DNA of 36,114 nt, from the NCBI GenBank assembly GCA_017649645.1, contig JAGCGK010000192.1:1-36114 (forward strand). The letters are read 5' to 3'. Position 1 is the stretch's first letter. Each line of letters begins with the position of its first letter. The stretch comes from Clostridiales bacterium. GTDB lineage: Bacteria; Bacillota; Clostridia; Saccharofermentanales; Saccharofermentanaceae. The translations under genes were made by a program, and so were the position numbers. The notes under the pieces are model-generated. The model was not told the origin of the DNA and searched no databases. It saw only the letters and a list, made by a program, of their open reading frames with translations. Positions 6,316 to 13,556 of this stretch are shown piece after piece.

Positions 6316-8598
6316 TTATGGAAGAATAGCGTAGTTTGAACAGATATCTTTGAACTCAGGACTTGTCGAGAAAGATTCAAATACTTTGTCTCGTGAAGTA
6401 CCGTTATTCAACAGATCCAACCAGTATGCAAATCCGTTTTCATCAGCTTGTCGACCCATAAAAGTTGCATACAATCTATTCAAGTATTCTTCGTTATCAT
6501 AATTGTTATTCAGGAATTCCTTACTGTAGAAGAATTCCTTTGCAGCCTGTGTTCCCGTAACGTCAAGATTTGTGAGAGCAAGACTCCAATAGTTTAAACC
6601 GTCCTGTTCAGGATCACGTCCCAAACACTCAGAATAGAGCCTTGTAGCAAATGCTGAAGCATTCTCAGATGCCTGTGTTGCCTTGGCTGCTATGGCACCT
6701 GATCTTACACCGTAAGAAGCACAGACATTACACCACTCAGTTGAGTTAATGAAATCATTGATTACCTTATCACGACCTTCGGTCTTAAGACTGTTAAGCC
6801 AGAATGAATAACCGTCAGGATCGTTTTGGGCATCTCTGTTAAAGAATGTCGAGTAGAGAACCTTAACAAAATCTTCATCACTTAAATTCTTGTTTTTGAA
6901 CTCAGTGCTATTAAGGAATTCTCTTGCACAATCAGCACCTGTAAGACTGCCGTTTTTAACATTTTCACACCAGAATGCTTTGCCTTCATTCTCGGATTCT
7001 CTGCCGAGTGCAACAGTGTACAGACGCTCAACAAAAGCATCAAATGACTGCTTTTCTGTCTCGGTTTCAGTTGGCTTGTTTGGAGCAGGGTTGATCTGAG
7101 ATGGTGGTTGTGTTCCATCATTCTCTGCAGGATTGGTGTTTGTGTTGTCCTGGATTTGTCCTTCGTTATCTGAAGAAGTGTTCTCGTTAGGAACGTTGCT
7201 TTCCTCTCCTGATGAAGGGAGAATATTAGTTAATTCGATTGGTACACTGGCATAGTCAGATTCTTGATCACCGTTTATATCTTCTGCGAATACATATACG
7301 TGATAATCCGTTCCAAGGGTTCCGAGACCTTCAGGAAGCGTGAATGTGCCTGTTCCCGAAGAAAGATCGCCCATGACTTCAAGAGTGTCATAATAAATTA
7401 TCTCTGCGTCACTGTCGCTATATGCTTTATTCGAAATCAAGACAGAGATCTGAGAAGCTTTTGATGAATCCAAGCCGCTGATACTGTACGGAACAGTAAC
7501 GGTATTTCCCGAATAATATGCTGAAGAAGAAAGGACGAGATTAAGATCGGAATCCTTGAGTGTTAACTTGTATTCCGCACCTGGCTGTCCGTAAGTTCCG
7601 GATATTACTGTGGAAAAAAGGATGGAATCACTATCCAAGTTAAGAGCAGGGGAGACACCAAGTCTCGTATCAAATATTGAATCATACCACATATATCCTA
7701 CACTATAGATATCACATGCGTAGAAATGTATTCTGTACTGAAGAGGTATTCTTTCTGATGTATTATATCTCGACCTTGTCCAATATCCGTAGTTCTTGTC
7801 TTTGACACGATTTACACTGTATTCCGAGCATGAATCGGTTTTTGATCCCAGATCTCGAATTCCATCGCTTGACAAGTTGTAATCCAAATCAAGTTTTGGC
7901 AGGTAATAACCATATGATTCATTAAGAAGTTCTTCAACATCTAATATAAATATCTTTTCTCCGGTTAATCCGATAAACTCGTCATAAGATTGCATAGCGC
8001 AGAAATCAACATTTCCGGCTTCGTTTCCCATTGTCAATTTATGGTTTTCTACATAACTATTAATGATCGAGTTTTGTTCAGCACCGGAAAAAACGTTCTC
8101 GTTATTTAAGAAATCCTCACCGTTAAGATAATTTCTCAGGTCACTGTTTTTCCAGGTATATTCGTTAGTTATCTCCTCCCATTCTTCCAAAGTTTTGGAG
8201 TAAAAGTCATCAGGTTCGTAACGTCCTATTTCGTCTATTGTGATCCCCTCGGGTGCTGAATTAAACAGCGGTGCTGTAAAGAGAACACTGTCGCAATCAA
8301 GGAAAACAGTCTTTTTTCCGTTGCCGTAAATTTCTGAGTCTGTGTCTAAAACACGGAACTTGATCGGGTTACCATCATACTTGCCCAAGTAGATATAGCT
8401 TCCTTCCCAAGGTGTATCAAAATCATCAGGAATTGAAGGATCAGCAATCTGAGAGACTCCCAGTTTCGTATTATCCTTGTTTTTTGTCCCGTCTGCTCTT
8501 ACGTCAGTTCCGTTATTTAACCACGGTATAAGAGCGATTCCCATAGTAACCGCCAAAGCTGATGATATGATCTTGGCTGATCTTATCTTTAAATTCAT
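6316..8598 (-). CDS. Secreted DUF6273-like / double DUF4214 protein (paralogue 3 of 3)
   Basis: A 760-residue secreted protein. Residues 1-36 form a signal peptide ending ALIPWLNNGTDVRA. About residues 60-335 form a DUF6273-like module: GSYIYLGKYDG, IKFRVLDTDS, a W-x-x-S-x-L motif in WKNSDLRNYLNG, LTGEKIFILDVEELL and GVSPALNLDSD. A beta module follows (about 345-465, including TVPYSISGLDSS). A Pro/Thr/Asn/Glu linker leads to two DUF4214 repeats starting near 518 and 648 (FVERLYTVALGRESENEG, TRLYSECLGRDPEQDG). Repeat 1 ends with a WCNVC Cys pair. The start has a GGAGG site and lies 19 nt after the previous paralogue. No cell-wall anchor is seen; function unknown, presumably extracellular. Confidence 0.82.
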   Translation of the reverse strand: MNLKIRSAKIISSALAVTMGIALIPWLNNGTDVRADGTKNKDNTKLGVSQIADPSIPDDFDTPWEGSYIYLGKYDGNPIKFRVLDTDSEIYGNGKKTVFLDCDSVLFTAPLFNSAPEGITIDEIGRYEPDDFYSKTLEEWEEITNEYTWKNSDLRNYLNGEDFLNNENVFSGAEQNSIINSYVENHKLTMGNEAGNVDFCAMQSYDEFIGLTGEKIFILDVEELLNESYGYYLPKLDLDYNLSSDGIRDLGSKTDSCSEYSVNRVKDKNYGYWTRSRYNTSERIPLQYRIHFYACDIYSVGYMWYDSIFDTRLGVSPALNLDSDSILFSTVISGTYGQPGAEYKLTLKDSDLNLVLSSSAYYSGNTVTVPYSISGLDSSKASQISVLISNKAYSDSDAEIIYYDTLEVMGDLSSGTGTFTLPEGLGTLGTDYHVYVFAEDINGDQESDYASVPIELTNILPSSGEESNVPNENTSSDNEGQIQDNTNTNPAENDGTQPPSQINPAPNKPTETETEKQSFDAFVERLYTVALGRESENEGKAFWCENVKNGSLTGADCAREFLNSTEFKNKNLSDEDFVKVLYSTFFNRDAQNDPDGYSFWLNSLKTEGRDKVINDFINSTEWCNVCASYGVRSGAIAAKATQASENASAFATRLYSECLGRDPEQDGLNYWSLALTNLDVTGTQAAKEFFYSKEFLNNNYDNEEYLNRLYATFMGRQADENGFAYWLDLLNNGTSRDKVFESFSTSPEFKDICSNYAILP

Positions 8599-8617
8599 GA
8601 GTCCTTTTCCTCCTTAC

Positions 8618-10771
8618 TTATCTCTGAATGGCATATGAATTACATATCTCTGCAAATTCGTTGCTTCTTGCAAATGAATCGAAAACATCATTTCTGGATG
8701 TTCCCCCTTCGAGGAGGTTGATCCAATATGTGAAACCGTCGTTATCTGGTTCTCTTCCCATAAACGTTCCATAAAGCCTGGAGATATATTCTTCGTTATC
8801 GTAGTTGCTGTCCTGGAACTCTTTGCTGTAGATGAATTCTCTTACTGCCTGGGTACCCGTAAGTTCCTGATTTGTAAGTCCGAGGCTCCAGTAGATAAGA
8901 CCTTCGGAATCGGCTTCTCTTCCAAGACATGTTGTGTAAAGTCTTTTAACAAATTCGATGGAATTTATGGAAGGCACAGTAGCTTTGGCTGTAGAAGCAC
9001 CCGATCTTACTCCGTAGAATGCGCAGACATTGCACCATTCGGTAGAATTGATAAATCCGTTTACGACCGCAGAACGGCTTTCCGTCTCAAGAACATTGAG
9101 CCAGTAATTAAATCCTGTCGGATCATCCTGTGCATTTCTGTCGAAGAAGACTTCATAAAGTACGGATAGAAATTCTTCATCAGTCAGATTTCTGTCGTTA
9201 AATTCCGCGCTGTTAAGGAATTCTCTAGCGCAGTCAGCACCCGTGAGATCACCGTTTTTTACGTGATCGGCCCAGAATGTCTTGCCGTCGCTTTCGGATT
9301 CTCTTCCGAGCGCTACGTTGTAAAGGCGCTCGACAAAACCTTCGAAACTTGTATTTTCGTTAGATGGATCATCGTTAGAAGGATCATCGTTGTCAGAAGT
9401 ATCCTGTTCGATCGTTTCTGTAGGAATTTCGGTCACCTCGATAACATCACCTGCATAGTCCGTTTCAAGTAAGTCATTTATGATTTCAGGGAAAATATAA
9501 ACGTGATATGCTGTTCCCCAGTCTTTAAGCTCAAGTCCTTCAGGAAGAACGAAAGACCCTGTGCCTTTTGTCGAGAATATATCTACTGAGCTGAGTTTTT
9601 CATAATATAGTATCTCTGCTTCACTGTCGTTATATTCCTTATCCGTAATAAGAACGGAAATCTGATTTGCTTTGACTACATTTTTGCCGGTGATTTCATA
9701 TGGAACCGTTATCTTTCTTTCTGTAAAGGTCGGATCGGAAGGATAAGAGATTTGAAGATTCGGGTCTTTGATCGTTAATTTGTATGTAGCTCCGACCTCT
9801 CCAGCTTTTCCTACTATTACAGTGGAGAAGAGGATTGGATCCTGATCAAGATTCATAGCAGGTGCAACACCAAGGGACGGAGTGAAAACGGTATCACAAT
9901 ACAAGTATCCTGTAGTCCAAACATCGCCCATGGCACCCAAACCCTTGTAATGTGATCTCAGCCAATACCCGTCAACCAAGTCATTGTAGGTCTTTATCCT
10001 GCTATAAGTGAAATCTTCGGCGTTTATTCCGCTTGTATCGCCTGACGGGACACCCCTACCGTTAATTGTAGGGTTTTTAGGTAAATAATAACCGTAAGAA
10101 TCGTTAAGAATATCTTCAACGTCCAGGATAAATATCTTTTCTCCAGTCAAACCTTCTGATTCTACAAAATTATGGTAGGCGTCATAGTCGACATTACCCG
10201 GTTCAGTTCCCATTACCAGATCATGTGTGGAAACATAACTGTTAGCTATCGCATTTTCTTCCGTTTCAGTAAAGACATTTCTGTTTTCCAGGAAATCGGA
10301 TCCGTTAAGATACTTTTTAAGATCGCTGTTTCCCCAACGGTAATCTTTAACAAATTCCATTGTACTGTCGCTTGTGCCATAGTAAATAGGCTGTCTGTAA
10401 GGTCCTGTTAATATCAAATCTTCAGGTGCATCAATACAGATCGGACTTTCGAACAAAATCTTGTCACTATCCAGGAAAACAGTCTTTTTCCCGTTTCCGT
10501 AGATGTCTGAGTCCGTGTCCAAAACGCGGAACTTGATAGGGGAACCTTCATACTTACCGTAATAGATATAACTTCCTGACCAGGAAGACTGCATATTTTC
10601 CGGAATTGCAGGCTCTGCTATCTGTGATACTCCGAGTTTTGTGTTATCTTTGTTTTTTATCCCGTCTGCTCTTACAACAGTTTCTTTTTGTAACCACGGT
10701 ATAAGAGTGATTCCCATAGTAACCGCCAATGCTGATGATATTATCCTGGCGGATCTGATCTTTAAATTCAT
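8618..10771 (-). CDS. Secreted DUF6273-like / double DUF4214 protein (paralogue 2 of 3)
   Basis: A 717-residue paralogue with the same layout: signal peptide ending in VVRA, DUF6273-like module (GSYIYYGKYEGS, WGNSDLKKYLNG, LTGEKIFILDVEDIL, GVAPAMNLDQD), beta module (TVPYEITGKNVV), a short Asp/Asn/Ser linker and two DUF4214 repeats starting near residues 475 and 605. The open frame extends to 10852 inside the preceding gene, but the Met at 10771 is chosen. It has a GGAG site 8 nt upstream and starts exactly like the 8598 paralogue (MNLKIRSA). It lies 16 nt downstream of the first paralogue. The signal regions of this gene and the 6316-8598 gene are nearly identical, so those two are the closer pair. 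Confidence 0.82.
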   Translation of the reverse strand: MNLKIRSARIISSALAVTMGITLIPWLQKETVVRADGIKNKDNTKLGVSQIAEPAIPENMQSSWSGSYIYYGKYEGSPIKFRVLDTDSDIYGNGKKTVFLDSDKILFESPICIDAPEDLILTGPYRQPIYYGTSDSTMEFVKDYRWGNSDLKKYLNGSDFLENRNVFTETEENAIANSYVSTHDLVMGTEPGNVDYDAYHNFVESEGLTGEKIFILDVEDILNDSYGYYLPKNPTINGRGVPSGDTSGINAEDFTYSRIKTYNDLVDGYWLRSHYKGLGAMGDVWTTGYLYCDTVFTPSLGVAPAMNLDQDPILFSTVIVGKAGEVGATYKLTIKDPNLQISYPSDPTFTERKITVPYEITGKNVVKANQISVLITDKEYNDSEAEILYYEKLSSVDIFSTKGTGSFVLPEGLELKDWGTAYHVYIFPEIINDLLETDYAGDVIEVTEIPTETIEQDTSDNDDPSNDDPSNENTSFEGFVERLYNVALGRESESDGKTFWADHVKNGDLTGADCAREFLNSAEFNDRNLTDEEFLSVLYEVFFDRNAQDDPTGFNYWLNVLETESRSAVVNGFINSTEWCNVCAFYGVRSGASTAKATVPSINSIEFVKRLYTTCLGREADSEGLIYWSLGLTNQELTGTQAVREFIYSKEFQDSNYDNEEYISRLYGTFMGREPDNDGFTYWINLLEGGTSRNDVFDSFARSNEFAEICNSYAIQR

Positions 10772-10787
10772 TTCTTTTTCTCCTTGC

Positions 10788-13094
10788 TTATCTGTGAATT
10801 GCGTATGAGTTACAAATCTCAGCAAACTCAGCACTTCTCGCAAAGGAATCAAATACTTCGTTTCTGGATGTTCCGCTGCTTAACAGGTTTACCCAATATG
10901 ACATTCCGTCTGTGTCAGGCTCACGATCCATAAATGTTTTATAAAGTCTTGTCAGATATTCTTCGTCACTGAAGTTCTGATCCTGAAATTCTCTGCTGTA
11001 AACAAACTCTCTTACAGCCTGTGTTCCTGTAAGTTCAAGATTGGTAAGTCCAAGACTCCAATAATCAAGACCTTCTTTATCTGCATTTCTTCCAAGACAA
11101 GTTGTATAAAGTCTTTCAACGAATTCAATTGAGTTCTTTGATGCTACGGTTGCCTTAGCGGTTGTGGCGCCGGATCTAACACCATAGGATGCGCAGACAT
11201 TGCACCACTCGGTAGAGTTGATGAAACCGTTAACAACTGCATAGCGGCTTTCAGTTTTGAGACTGTTGAGCCAGAAATTGTATCCACTAGGATCATTCTG
11301 TGGGTCTCTGTCGAAGAATACCTGATAAAGGACATTTAAGAAGTCCTCGTCGCTCAGATTTCTATCATTAAACTCTGCACTGTTAAGGAACTCTCTTGCA
11401 CAGTCTGCTCCTGAAAGTTCACCGTTCTTTACGTGATCGACCCAGAAGGTTTTACCGTCGCTTTCAGATTCGCGATCGAGAGCTATGTTGTAAAGACGCT
11501 CTACAAAAGCAGAGAAGTCCTTTGGCTCTTCAGTTGGTTCTGGAGTTGCAGTTGGATCTGGAGTTACAGTTGGGGTTTCTTCTGAAGGATTTTCCTGAGT
11601 AGGGGTAGTTGTCGGATTGTCTTCGTTTGGATTTTGTGTTTCTTCTTCAGAAGCAGTTGGCAAGTTTACTGTTACTTCAAATGGTGTACTGGCATAGTCA
11701 GATTCAAAATCGCCGTTTGAGTCTTCAGCGATAATGTAAACGTGATAGCTAACTCCACAAGTACCGCTTACTGTTCCTTCCGGTACAGTGAATGTTCCTG
11801 TTCCTGAAGTAGAGAAATCTTCAGAAGTATTCAACTTGTTGTAATACAGAATTTCTGCATCAAGCGCATCATAACTCTTATCTGTGATCAAAACTGATAC
11901 CTGTGAGGCCTTTCCTGCATTAGATCCACTGATGCTATATGGAACAGTAACAGTGTTTCCCGAAAGAGTAGCAGATGCATTTACTTTCAATTCAGTATCA
12001 AGGAATGTCAGTTTGTATTCCGCATTAACTTCTCCTAATGCTCCGGATATAGCTGTGGAGAAAAGTATCGTATTCCTGTCGATATTCAGAGCCGGACTTA
12101 CGCCGAAGGACATATGGTTGGATTCTGCTGATGCTGCAGCAAGCCATCCATATATGCTTACTATGCAGAATTCCGGTGGATCAAAAAGGTTTGCAGGCTT
12201 AGGACTACCATACAACTCTTCATAGTCAAATGGTACTTCTGCGGTACGCAAGTAATATCGTGCATATTCATGAAGCCAAGTGTGATCGGAACTTTCTTCC
12301 AAATATGACTTTACTCTGGATTGGATCAACAGATTATCGAAATGATTATCTCCTACTCCGTAGAAATATCCATAATCCATATTAAGAACATCATCCATGT
12401 CCAACAAGAAAATCTTTTCGCCGTTTAAAGGAGCAATATCTTCAAAATATCTTCTGCCGTCAAGGTAAAAAGTGTCGGAAACGGGTTCATCGCTCCATTG
12501 TGTCATATATGTATAAAGATCAGTTGTGATCTTTCCACTATCCTGGTAGCTTTTTGCTATAGACGCTTTTTCTATATCTGTGAAAACACCGTCTTTATCA
12601 AGAAATCCGGCGCCATTAATATAACTATTTAATGAGCATTTGCTCCAATCATTCGTTTCAGTTCCAATACAATGAGGATAAGGCGTTACTTCACTTTCGT
12701 CTGATTGAGGAACAACTACAGGACCATGAGGACGTTCAACTCCGCAGTCGTCAAATAGTTCTTCAAAAAGGACACTGTCACAATCCAACAGGATTGTTTC
12801 ACTCTTGTACTTCGTTGATTCAGGATCCAATACTCTGAACTTGATCGGAATACCATTGTATTTTCCGAAATAGACGAAACTTCCTGTCCATGGATCTGTT
12901 TCTATTCCTTTTATTCCGGGAGCAACAGGCTTAGCCATGTGCTCGACTCCCAGCATCGTGTTAGTCTCGTTTTTGAGAGTATCTGCCTTTACAGATTTTT
13001 GATTGGCTAGGAATGGGACTAAAGAGATACACAGTGTTGATGCCAAAACAGATGAGACAATTTTGGCCGCATTAGATTGTCTAAAAGTGATCAT
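10788..13094 (-). CDS. Secreted DUF6273-like / double DUF4214 protein (paralogue 1 of 3)
   Basis: A 768-residue protein and the first gene of the tandem family. The signal peptide (about 1-38) ends SVKADT. The DUF6273-like module (about 60-345) includes GSFVYFGKYNG, IKFRVLDPES, LNGEKIFLLDMDDVL and FGVSPALNIDRN. A beta module (about 355-480) and a Pro/Thr/Glu-rich linker (PTPT-type, about 485-527) precede DUF4214 repeats at about 528-645 and 653-766. Both repeats keep the LYxxxLxRxxDxxGxxYW-type pattern, and WCNVC ends the first. It is more diverged than the other two, with an insertion in the DUF6273-like part. The DUF4214 fold is known as a secreted-protein repeat, but its ligand is not established. 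Confidence 0.82.
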   Translation of the reverse strand: MITFRQSNAAKIVSSVLASTLCISLVPFLANQKSVKADTLKNETNTMLGVEHMAKPVAPGIKGIETDPWTGSFVYFGKYNGIPIKFRVLDPESTKYKSETILLDCDSVLFEELFDDCGVERPHGPVVVPQSDESEVTPYPHCIGTETNDWSKCSLNSYINGAGFLDKDGVFTDIEKASIAKSYQDSGKITTDLYTYMTQWSDEPVSDTFYLDGRRYFEDIAPLNGEKIFLLDMDDVLNMDYGYFYGVGDNHFDNLLIQSRVKSYLEESSDHTWLHEYARYYLRTAEVPFDYEELYGSPKPANLFDPPEFCIVSIYGWLAAASAESNHMSFGVSPALNIDRNTILFSTAISGALGEVNAEYKLTFLDTELKVNASATLSGNTVTVPYSISGSNAGKASQVSVLITDKSYDALDAEILYYNKLNTSEDFSTSGTGTFTVPEGTVSGTCGVSYHVYIIAEDSNGDFESDYASTPFEVTVNLPTASEEETQNPNEDNPTTTPTQENPSEETPTVTPDPTATPEPTEEPKDFSAFVERLYNIALDRESESDGKTFWVDHVKNGELSGADCAREFLNSAEFNDRNLSDEDFLNVLYQVFFDRDPQNDPSGYNFWLNSLKTESRYAVVNGFINSTEWCNVCASYGVRSGATTAKATVASKNSIEFVERLYTTCLGRNADKEGLDYWSLGLTNLELTGTQAVREFVYSREFQDQNFSDEEYLTRLYKTFMDREPDTDGMSYWVNLLSSGTSRNEVFDSFARSAEFAEICNSYAIHR

Positions 13095-13298: not shown

Positions 13299-13327
13299 TT
13301 GATTCATTTCGTAAGTGATGCTAGTAT
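13299..13327 (+). promoter_or_regulatory. Candidate promoter of the ABC-F leader
   Basis: TTGATT (13299-13304) and TAGTAT (13322-13327) are 17 nt apart, predicting a transcript start near 13334, about 42 nt before the three-codon leader ORF. An alternative just upstream is TTGATA (13258-13263) with TATAAA (13280-13285) at 16 nt. Either would place the whole attenuator in the transcript. Confidence 0.45.
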
Positions 13328-13375
13328 CAAGAGGAATTCAAAAGAAAGAACACATTTATTGTGTAGGGTGGACCA

Positions 13376-13387
13376 ATGAGGAAGTAA
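13376..13387 (+). CDS. Three-codon leader ORF (Met-Arg-Lys-stop)
   Basis: The sequence ATG AGG AAG TAA follows a ribosome-site-like AGGGTGG (13365-13371) at 4-nt spacing. A small hairpin (ACACA/TGTGT, 13350-13364) sits just upstream. The lysine codon and stop codon form the 5' edge of the 15-bp stem 13384-13398/13440-13454, so a ribosome paused here would block that stem. Very short regulatory ORFs are known before antibiotic-inducible ABC-F genes such as Listeria lmo0919 and Bacillus vmlR. That this one is translated is inference. Confidence 0.5.
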   Translation: MRK

Positions 13388-13516
13388 TTCGATTTAAGTT
13401 TTATAACATCAGGACCTTAAAAGGGTCGGTTTGTGTACGCTTAAATTGGATTACGGATGGTTTCATGGTCTTGCCGATGTGGTTAGATTTATTGAGTCTG
13501 TTTTTGCGTATGCAAA
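13384..13516 (+). promoter_or_regulatory. Ribosome-mediated attenuator: two competing RNA stems
   Basis: Stem A pairs 13384-13398 with 13440-13454: 15 continuous pairs, two of them G-U, including the leader ORF stop codon. Stem B, the antiterminator, pairs 13430-13440 with 13506-13516: 11 continuous pairs, two G-U. Stem B uses base 13440 and the loop of stem A, so it is incompatible with A except as a pseudoknot. It also uses the loop and 3' arm of the terminator at 13496-13523. In the simplest reading, free translation lets stem A and the terminator form, so transcription stops. Drug-stalled ribosomes on the leader ORF block A, favour B and allow read-through. Confidence 0.6.
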
Positions 13517-13529
13517 GACAGGCTTTTTT
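13496..13529 (+). terminator. Attenuator terminator directly upstream of the ABC-F gene
   Basis: A 12-bp stem (13496-13507 with 13512-13523, two G-U pairs) with a 4-nt loop is followed by six Ts (13524-13529). It stands 28 nt before the ABC-F start and after the leader promoters, so it is inside the transcription unit and not the end of another gene: the neighbour on that side is divergent. Confidence 0.8.
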
Positions 13530-13556
13530 GTAAGGCCCTTTAACCAAGGAGGCCAT

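Follow-up and report, generated by a model that had tools for sequence, protein, structure and literature searches.

We analysed the leader that precedes a gene for an ABC-F ribosomal-protection protein in a stretch of 36,114 nucleotides (nt), here called the window, from a Clostridiales bacterium of the family Saccharofermentanaceae (GenBank assembly GCA_017649645.1, contig JAGCGK010000192.1). It forms contig 17 among the 201 of a 3.18 Mb genome with a completeness of 90.39 and a contamination of 6.33. The ABC-F reading frame is intact over 503 amino acids (aa), and each half of its translation carries a Walker A motif, a signature motif and a Walker B motif. The product scored 441.2 with NF000355, the general ribosomal-protection ABC-F model (cut-off 380); its closest solved structure is Lsa(A) (7nhk), and its best plasmid match is Lsa(E), with 52% identity. 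The original prediction, made from the sequence alone, had described the gene as Lsa-like, which holds in that Lsa proteins are its nearest relatives, but not in the sense of Lsa proper, since the score of 625.1 with the NCBIfam Lsa model NF000167 stays below the cut-off of 750. Upstream of the gene lies a series of overlapping RNA elements (Table 1), which, judged from the observations below and by analogy with known leaders, is very likely a ribosome-sensing transcription attenuator of this target-protection gene.

The leader begins with a Shine-Dalgarno-like site and a three-codon upstream open reading frame (uORF) encoding Met-Arg-Lys, and a base-by-base check found all 15 pairs of stem A (13 Watson-Crick and two G-T) and all 11 pairs of helix B (nine Watson-Crick) to be as originally proposed, with the stop codon of the uORF inside stem A. 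Helix B indeed overlaps bases of both stem A and the terminator, so that the claimed conflict among the three elements was borne out. The terminator, proposed as a 12-bp stem (13496-13523), paired at 12/12 positions and in fact comprises 14 pairs (13494-13525), followed by a T-tract. Two elements go beyond that first account, namely a hairpin over the Shine-Dalgarno site of the ABC-F gene and an extension of helix B through the T-tract, with 10/10 pairs (six Watson-Crick) in the window. The folding energy of the leader was -72.3 kcal/mol, compared with -49.5 +/- 4.14 in shuffled sequences (z -5.51; 0/200 as good), and a Shine-Dalgarno-like site with a three-codon open reading frame arose in 21/2000 shuffles. 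Stem length is less remarkable, and was dropped as a proof by itself, since an uninterrupted stem of at least 15 pairs appeared in 7/300 shuffles. The fold of stem A in the window extends outward to cover the ribosome site of the uORF and part of its start (13367-13381), unlike 10/20 leaders of genus g5, where the stem starts only at +8 from the A of the AUG.

Table 1. Features of the ABC-F leader and gene in the window
Feature	Position	Strand	Basis
Possible promoter (TTGATT, 17 nt, TAGTAT)	13299..13327	+	by eye, 8/12 consensus bases
uORF Shine-Dalgarno-like site, GGGTGG	13366..13371	+	checked base by base
uORF ATG AGG AAG TAA, Met-Arg-Lys-stop	13376..13387	+	base check, conservation
Stem A (anti-antiterminator), 5' arm, containing the uORF stop codon (13385-13387)	13384..13398	+	
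Stem A, 3' arm	13440..13454	+	folding, covariation, base check
Small hairpin within the loop of stem A, whose bases re-pair as part of the extended antiterminator when the ON state is modelled	13413..13427	+	
Helix B (antiterminator), 5' strand	13430..13440	+	folding, pair counts, base check
Helix B, 3' strand, made of the terminator loop and the first bases of the terminator 3' arm	13506..13516	+	
Extension of helix B, pairing with 13521-13530 (terminator stem end and T-tract)	13418..13427	+	folding, base check, window only
Intrinsic terminator, 14 pairs (13494-13525), with T-tract	13494..13529	+	terminator finder, base check
Hairpin over the ABC-F Shine-Dalgarno site AAGGAGG (13546-13552)	13534..13554	+	folding, base check
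ABC-F ribosomal-protection protein P0001, 503 aa	13557..15068	+	intact frame, profile matches

The strong evidence that the leader is beyond chance is its conservation together with two-sided changes in its stems. A search of 115 genomes of the family gave an ABC-F match at E 1e-50 or better in 101 of them, and a further search returned 58 loci; after the removal of 13 duplicate upstream regions, 88 loci yielded 75 distinct ones, and L086 (53 bases ahead of a match that starts at residue 159) was excluded from the counts. As anticipated for homologues of the gene, the short uORF was conserved: in the family search, the leaders of the top 26 matches (L001-L026, with the window as L001) all encode M-[RK]-[KR]-stop (22 MRK, three MRR and one MKR). 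The DNA motif of ribosome site plus uORF occurred in 27/115 genomes, with one copy each and always 5' of the ABC-F gene (27/27), and the reversed motif had zero occurrences in the same 115 genomes. That the same leader also serves other genes was ruled out for these genomes, as the motif stands at the ABC-F gene only. In genus g5, 21/23 genomes carry the motif; of the remaining two, one shows just a 3' fragment of the gene and the other gave no gene match. Across 20 g5 leaders, the columns of site, uORF and stop are 97% identical, compared with 58% in the linker, the 32 terminator columns are 87% identical, and a GGTRGACC block is kept. The window spells Arg-Lys as AGG-AAG, the 20 g5 leaders as AGA-AAG, L093 as AGA-AAA, and both L078 and L080 as CGC-AAA. 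No uORF was found in L030 by the rule used. L018, a g5 leader, combines a strong terminator stem with a poor T-tract, and termination may be weak there. Rfam covariance models gave no leader match at the gathering score, and up to E 5 the sole hit lay on the opposite strand and reached 14.6 bits, where the gathering score is 75; a riboswitch or other known RNA family was thus ruled out for the leader.

Pairing was counted in two alignments, A2 (20 g5 leaders) and A3 (21 leaders: the window and its near-twin, L023-L026 and 15 Lachnospiraceae-type rows); a third, A1 (window and g5 leaders), placed the 3' arm of stem A wrongly, as judged by eye. Stem A pairs in 95.4% of 372 cells of A3, 13 of which are changed on both sides, compared with 27-45% when the arms were slid against each other. 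Helix B pairs in 86.0% of 229 cells in A3 (14-62% slid) and in 93.6% of 219 cells in A2 (20-77% slid). The compensatory changes that had been suggested as a check were thus found, in A and more weakly in B, where two-sided changes are few (eight cells in A3 and four in A2) yet still above shuffles. Unaided, RNAalifold recovered stem A and the terminator in A2, and stem A without the terminator in A3.

To model a ribosome on the AUG, bases up to 13393 were masked during folding. Under this mask, helix B belonged to a minimum-energy fold of the window leader for transcripts ending at 13511-13519, and the terminator prevailed from about 13521-13523; without the mask, the folds with B were 12-16 kcal/mol worse for the same transcript ends. 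Masking therefore gives B while the terminator is still incomplete, as the switch requires, and the switch interpretation of the original prediction is supported. We then applied the test to 39 of 42 prepared leaders (L001-L026 and 16 hand-chosen ones, out of the 75 distinct regions), leaving out L024-L026, which lack a proper terminator, and setting the terminators of L010 and L018 by hand where the finder had chosen other hairpins. In this test, 32/39 leaders formed an antiterminator involving the stem-A hairpin region only when masked, compared with 53/312 controls in which everything between uORF and terminator was shuffled. Furthermore, the B duplexes of the 39 leaders were stronger than those with shuffled 5' strands (median z -3.14). 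Cross-pairing of B strands among leaders was dropped as a control because it was not clean.

Comparable leaders are known from other drug-responsive genes. The vmlR leader of Bacillus subtilis (PMC9226507) spans 219 nt and shares the parts of our leader and their order: a three-codon uORF in an anti-antiterminator, then an antiterminator, an intrinsic terminator and a hairpin partly over the Shine-Dalgarno sequence of the gene; its uORF encodes MIN, and those of other Bacilli encode MDN, MDK and MRK. In our leader, we likewise found a three-codon uORF preceded by a ribosome site, an anti-antiterminator hairpin that contains uORF bases, an intrinsic terminator ahead of the gene and, in silico (in the window and in 32/39 leaders), an antiterminator that is incompatible with the first hairpin as well as with the terminator and is favoured only with a ribosome on the uORF. 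The vmlR precedent named in the original prediction is therefore apt, although vmlR belongs to another lineage and to the VmlR subfamily of ABC-F proteins, whereas the gene here is Lsa-like. This likeness concerns parts and their order, known from description and not from the leader sequence, and convergence is possible. In cplR of Clostridioides difficile, also a member of the Clostridia, a uORF MR[I/M] lies in a 5' hairpin, where a drug-stalled ribosome acts through both transcription and translation attenuation; its terminator hairpin covers its ribosome site, whereas here the terminator and the site hairpin are separate (PMC10201436). The uORF of lsa(A), the gene of the nearest solved ABC-F relative, has four codons (MAGN), unlike MRK, and that of VmlR2 encodes MK[L/Q] (PMC10201436). 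In Listeria, hflXr and lmo0919 are lincomycin-induced, and the hflXr uORF, with 14 codons and an RLR motif, is unlike that of the window (PMC6310831). The suggestion that the architecture might be undescribed in this lineage stands in part: the leader is of the same kind as that of vmlR, and searches of open-access literature, in which most subscription papers are missing, gave no description from the lineage, a negative of little weight. Switches of this kind are thus already known from Bacillus, and the MRK leader adds a conserved example from rumen and gut Clostridia; drug-sensing three-codon leaders would thereby extend to uncultured members of these communities, where related ABC-F genes are common. 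In MsrDL, too, a drug-stalled short uORF reportedly controls an ABC-F gene, msrD, and the six-residue peptide is said to mediate macrolide sensing at the stop codon.

The analysis shows the anatomy of the leader, its conservation, the two-sided changes and the folding logic. The drug-sensing mechanism, for which we rely on analogy and on modelled folding, very probably operates as follows; here we infer the translation of the uORF, the stalling by a drug, the identity of the drugs and transcription as the regulated step. Without drug, ribosomes would finish Met-Arg-Lys and leave, or never load, and stem A would form, thereby locking the B bases, so that the terminator folds and RNA polymerase halts at about 13529. 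With a pleuromutilin, lincosamide or streptogramin A type of drug present, a ribosome would be held on the first codons, and its footprint, reaching to about +16 from the A of the AUG, would cover the first ~8 bases of stem A. Helix B could then form once 13506-13516 leave the polymerase, taking the terminator loop and part of the 3' arm, and would extend across the T-tract, whereupon transcription would continue into the ABC-F gene. The ABC-F product would free the ribosomes, and the switch would close again. Leaky transcripts may be held back further, at translation, by the hairpin over the ABC-F ribosome site. The extension of helix B can continue onto the arm that covers this site at a cost of 1.4-2.3 kcal/mol, the ON fold without the site hairpin lying within that range of the ON fold with it in the window. 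Similar site hairpins were seen by eye in several other leader folds. In L024, L025 and L026 (MRR-stop), the openness of the site changed upon masking from 0.48 to 0.58, from 0.02 to 0.21 and from 0.29 to 0.55, respectively.

Several results weigh against the attenuator interpretation. Most directly, the terminator fold of the full-length masked leader (-47.9 kcal/mol) is about 5 kcal/mol ahead of the B fold (-42.7); equilibrium folding was thus ruled out as the mechanism, and B must act kinetically, by forming first. Shuffled sequences gave antiterminators too: 114/312 did so only when masked if stem A was not demanded, and 196/312 formed some antiterminator under the mask, compared with 35/39 real leaders. 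Seven of the 39 leaders failed the switch test, with an antiterminator also in the free state in L009, L021 and L070 and none under the start-codon footprint in L049, L060, L066 and L082. The own B duplex of L010 was no better than shuffles. Overall, the B 5' strands did not pair clearly better with their own terminators than with those of other leaders, and in 7/39 cases the majority of the foreign terminators outpaired the own one. The covariation of B is modest, and B slid by +2 still pairs at 62-77% because of a GU repeat. Opening of the ABC-F ribosome site was barely predicted in the window (unpaired 0.24 to 0.30 upon masking), and in L023 the site closed (0.07 to 0.02). Finally, MRK placed into B. 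subtilis vmlR induced less well (PMC9226507), and therefore the peptide is not neutral.

Related leaders with uORFs of other lengths bear on where the ribosome would be held. In genus g1, that of the window, and its relatives, 60 leaders of the usual ABC-F gene were retrieved (L089-L148), and 53 have a six-codon uORF, of which 52 end in Cys-stop and 29 read MRKTIC, with a ribosome site that is mostly GGAGGAACACC; of the other seven, three have a three-codon uORF and four none by the rule used, one of which, L094 (genome G100), does bear the MRK motif. The uORFs of L093 (MRK-stop), L104 and L112 (both MKR-stop) appeared by eye to be shortened MRKTIC-type frames in which the hairpin arm is kept. 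Of the 16 ABC-F genes in a supported Lachnospiraceae/Eubacterium clade (within L041-L084), 15 follow a seven-codon uORF, M[RK]xxSC[RK]-stop, and none was seen in L067; by eye, the 5' arm of the hairpin is made up of the Ile-Ser-Cys codons of this uORF. Another set of related loci has four-codon uORFs, as does Fusicatenibacter saccharivorans (L037). L029 (genome G001), with the uORF MRKSSC-stop, precedes a related ABC-F copy with an in-frame TAA. In the genome of the window, we detected no six-codon-type leader by two narrow patterns, one of which is too tight for many known leaders. A looser switch test, which took in 63/67 leaders without shuffled controls, found switching in 46/49 six-codon, 11/11 seven-codon and 2/3 further three-codon leaders.

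We weighed four other explanations against these data. The leader might be a general translation-stress sensor, in which any early slowing of a ribosome on the uORF turns the gene on; the mask test is blind to why the ribosome stays, and a section heading of the vmlR paper attributes VmlR induction to translation defects (PMC9226507). We consider this somewhat unlikely. It seems less probable still that the leader senses a drug at the stop or last codon and not at the first step after initiation; a macrolide, for example, might act together with the short basic peptide to halt the ribosome at termination or on the Lys codon, as in MsrDL. The stop codon does sit within stem A, most three- and four-codon uORFs have a basic last codon, and with a last-codon footprint at least seven upstream pairs to the terminator formed in 39/39 leaders, compared with 35 with a start-codon footprint, in a count that also admits linker pairs; the four leaders requiring the last-codon footprint all have four-codon uORFs. 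However, stem A starts at +3 to +12 from the A of the AUG in 98/98 leaders with three, four or six codons, compared with 399/980 shuffles, in a scan that began at +3 as its floor, whereas its distance to the stop codon varies with uORF length (median starts of +8, +10 and +4 for three, four and six codons, against -1, -2 and -14 relative to the stop). This anchoring speaks for a ribosome stalled on or close to the start codon, where lincosamides and pleuromutilins hold it (PMC9226507, PMC10201436). The gene is also nearest to Lsa proteins, to which protection against pleuromutilins, lincosamides and streptogramin A is ascribed, drugs acting right after initiation (PMC10201436). For seven-codon leaders, the same anchoring test was no better than chance (5/11 compared with 48/110 shuffles), with folds that ran only to +110 and cut several of their hairpins; in longer folds, their stems start by eye at about +8 to +10.

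Translational attenuation as the main output, with the hairpin over the ABC-F ribosome site and not the terminator as the effector, appears improbable. The hairpin does cover that site, L024-L026 retain the uORF and stem A without a proper terminator by the finder used, and cplR is regulated at both levels (PMC10201436), but the 87% identity of the terminator columns in the 20 g5 leaders and the small shift in site accessibility upon masking in the window speak against it. A constitutive leader, combining a chance mini-ORF, a terminator and fortuitous complementarity, can practically be dismissed, as the motif precedes the same gene in 27/27 matches, stem A shows two-sided changes and the switch rate is far above shuffles (32/39 compared with 53/312), even though single stems this long do occur in 7/300 shuffles.

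With the start-codon-anchored attenuator as the preferred interpretation, we tentatively consider that one old sensor of this type may have been kept before Lsa-like ABC-F genes across several clostridial families, although the odds are against it. Behind its first codons, the uORF would have varied freely in length (MRK-stop, MRR-stop, M-x-[INV]-R-stop, MRKTIC-stop and MRxISCR-stop), and its output would be a terminator or, perhaps, in L024-L026 only the ribosome-site hairpin. In that case, sensing would need no more than the first two or three codons, and the length of the uORF would drift neutrally about a constant position of the stem. The roughly one hundred natural leaders, with three, four, six or seven uORF codons, make it testable whether the tripeptide itself, or merely a ribosome parked on the AUG, is sensed.

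The descent of the gene was traced in an ABC-F tree of 69 rows, built after the removal of five genes that were short or broken and without the 43% type from the genus of the window. The window gene and its near-twin, from an uncultured Clostridia metagenome-assembled genome (MAG; L031), group with the g5 genes (support 99/96), and L027 and L028, which follow L001-L026 in match rank and have four-codon M[YK]NA-stop uORFs, are sister to this group. The usual ABC-F gene of the genus of the window is mostly 40-47% identical to that of the window, and no second ABC-F match of the 43% type common in the genus was found at E 1e-50 in the genomes of the window and its near-twin. The window gene may possibly reflect an old transfer or replacement, or a MAG gap may lie behind the missing 43% copy.

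As for the promoter, a scan of the window was no better than shuffles, and the scan and a scoring script favoured sites other than the one in Table 1. If that weak candidate is right, the RNA starts near 13334. TAGTAT is the top-scoring -10 word in 17/26 leaders (17/20 in g5), the window not being among them. Upstream of the leader, on the minus strand, three adjacent proteins of 760, 744 and 768 aa (6316-13094) each contain four DUF4214 stretches, and two of the three also match DUF6273.
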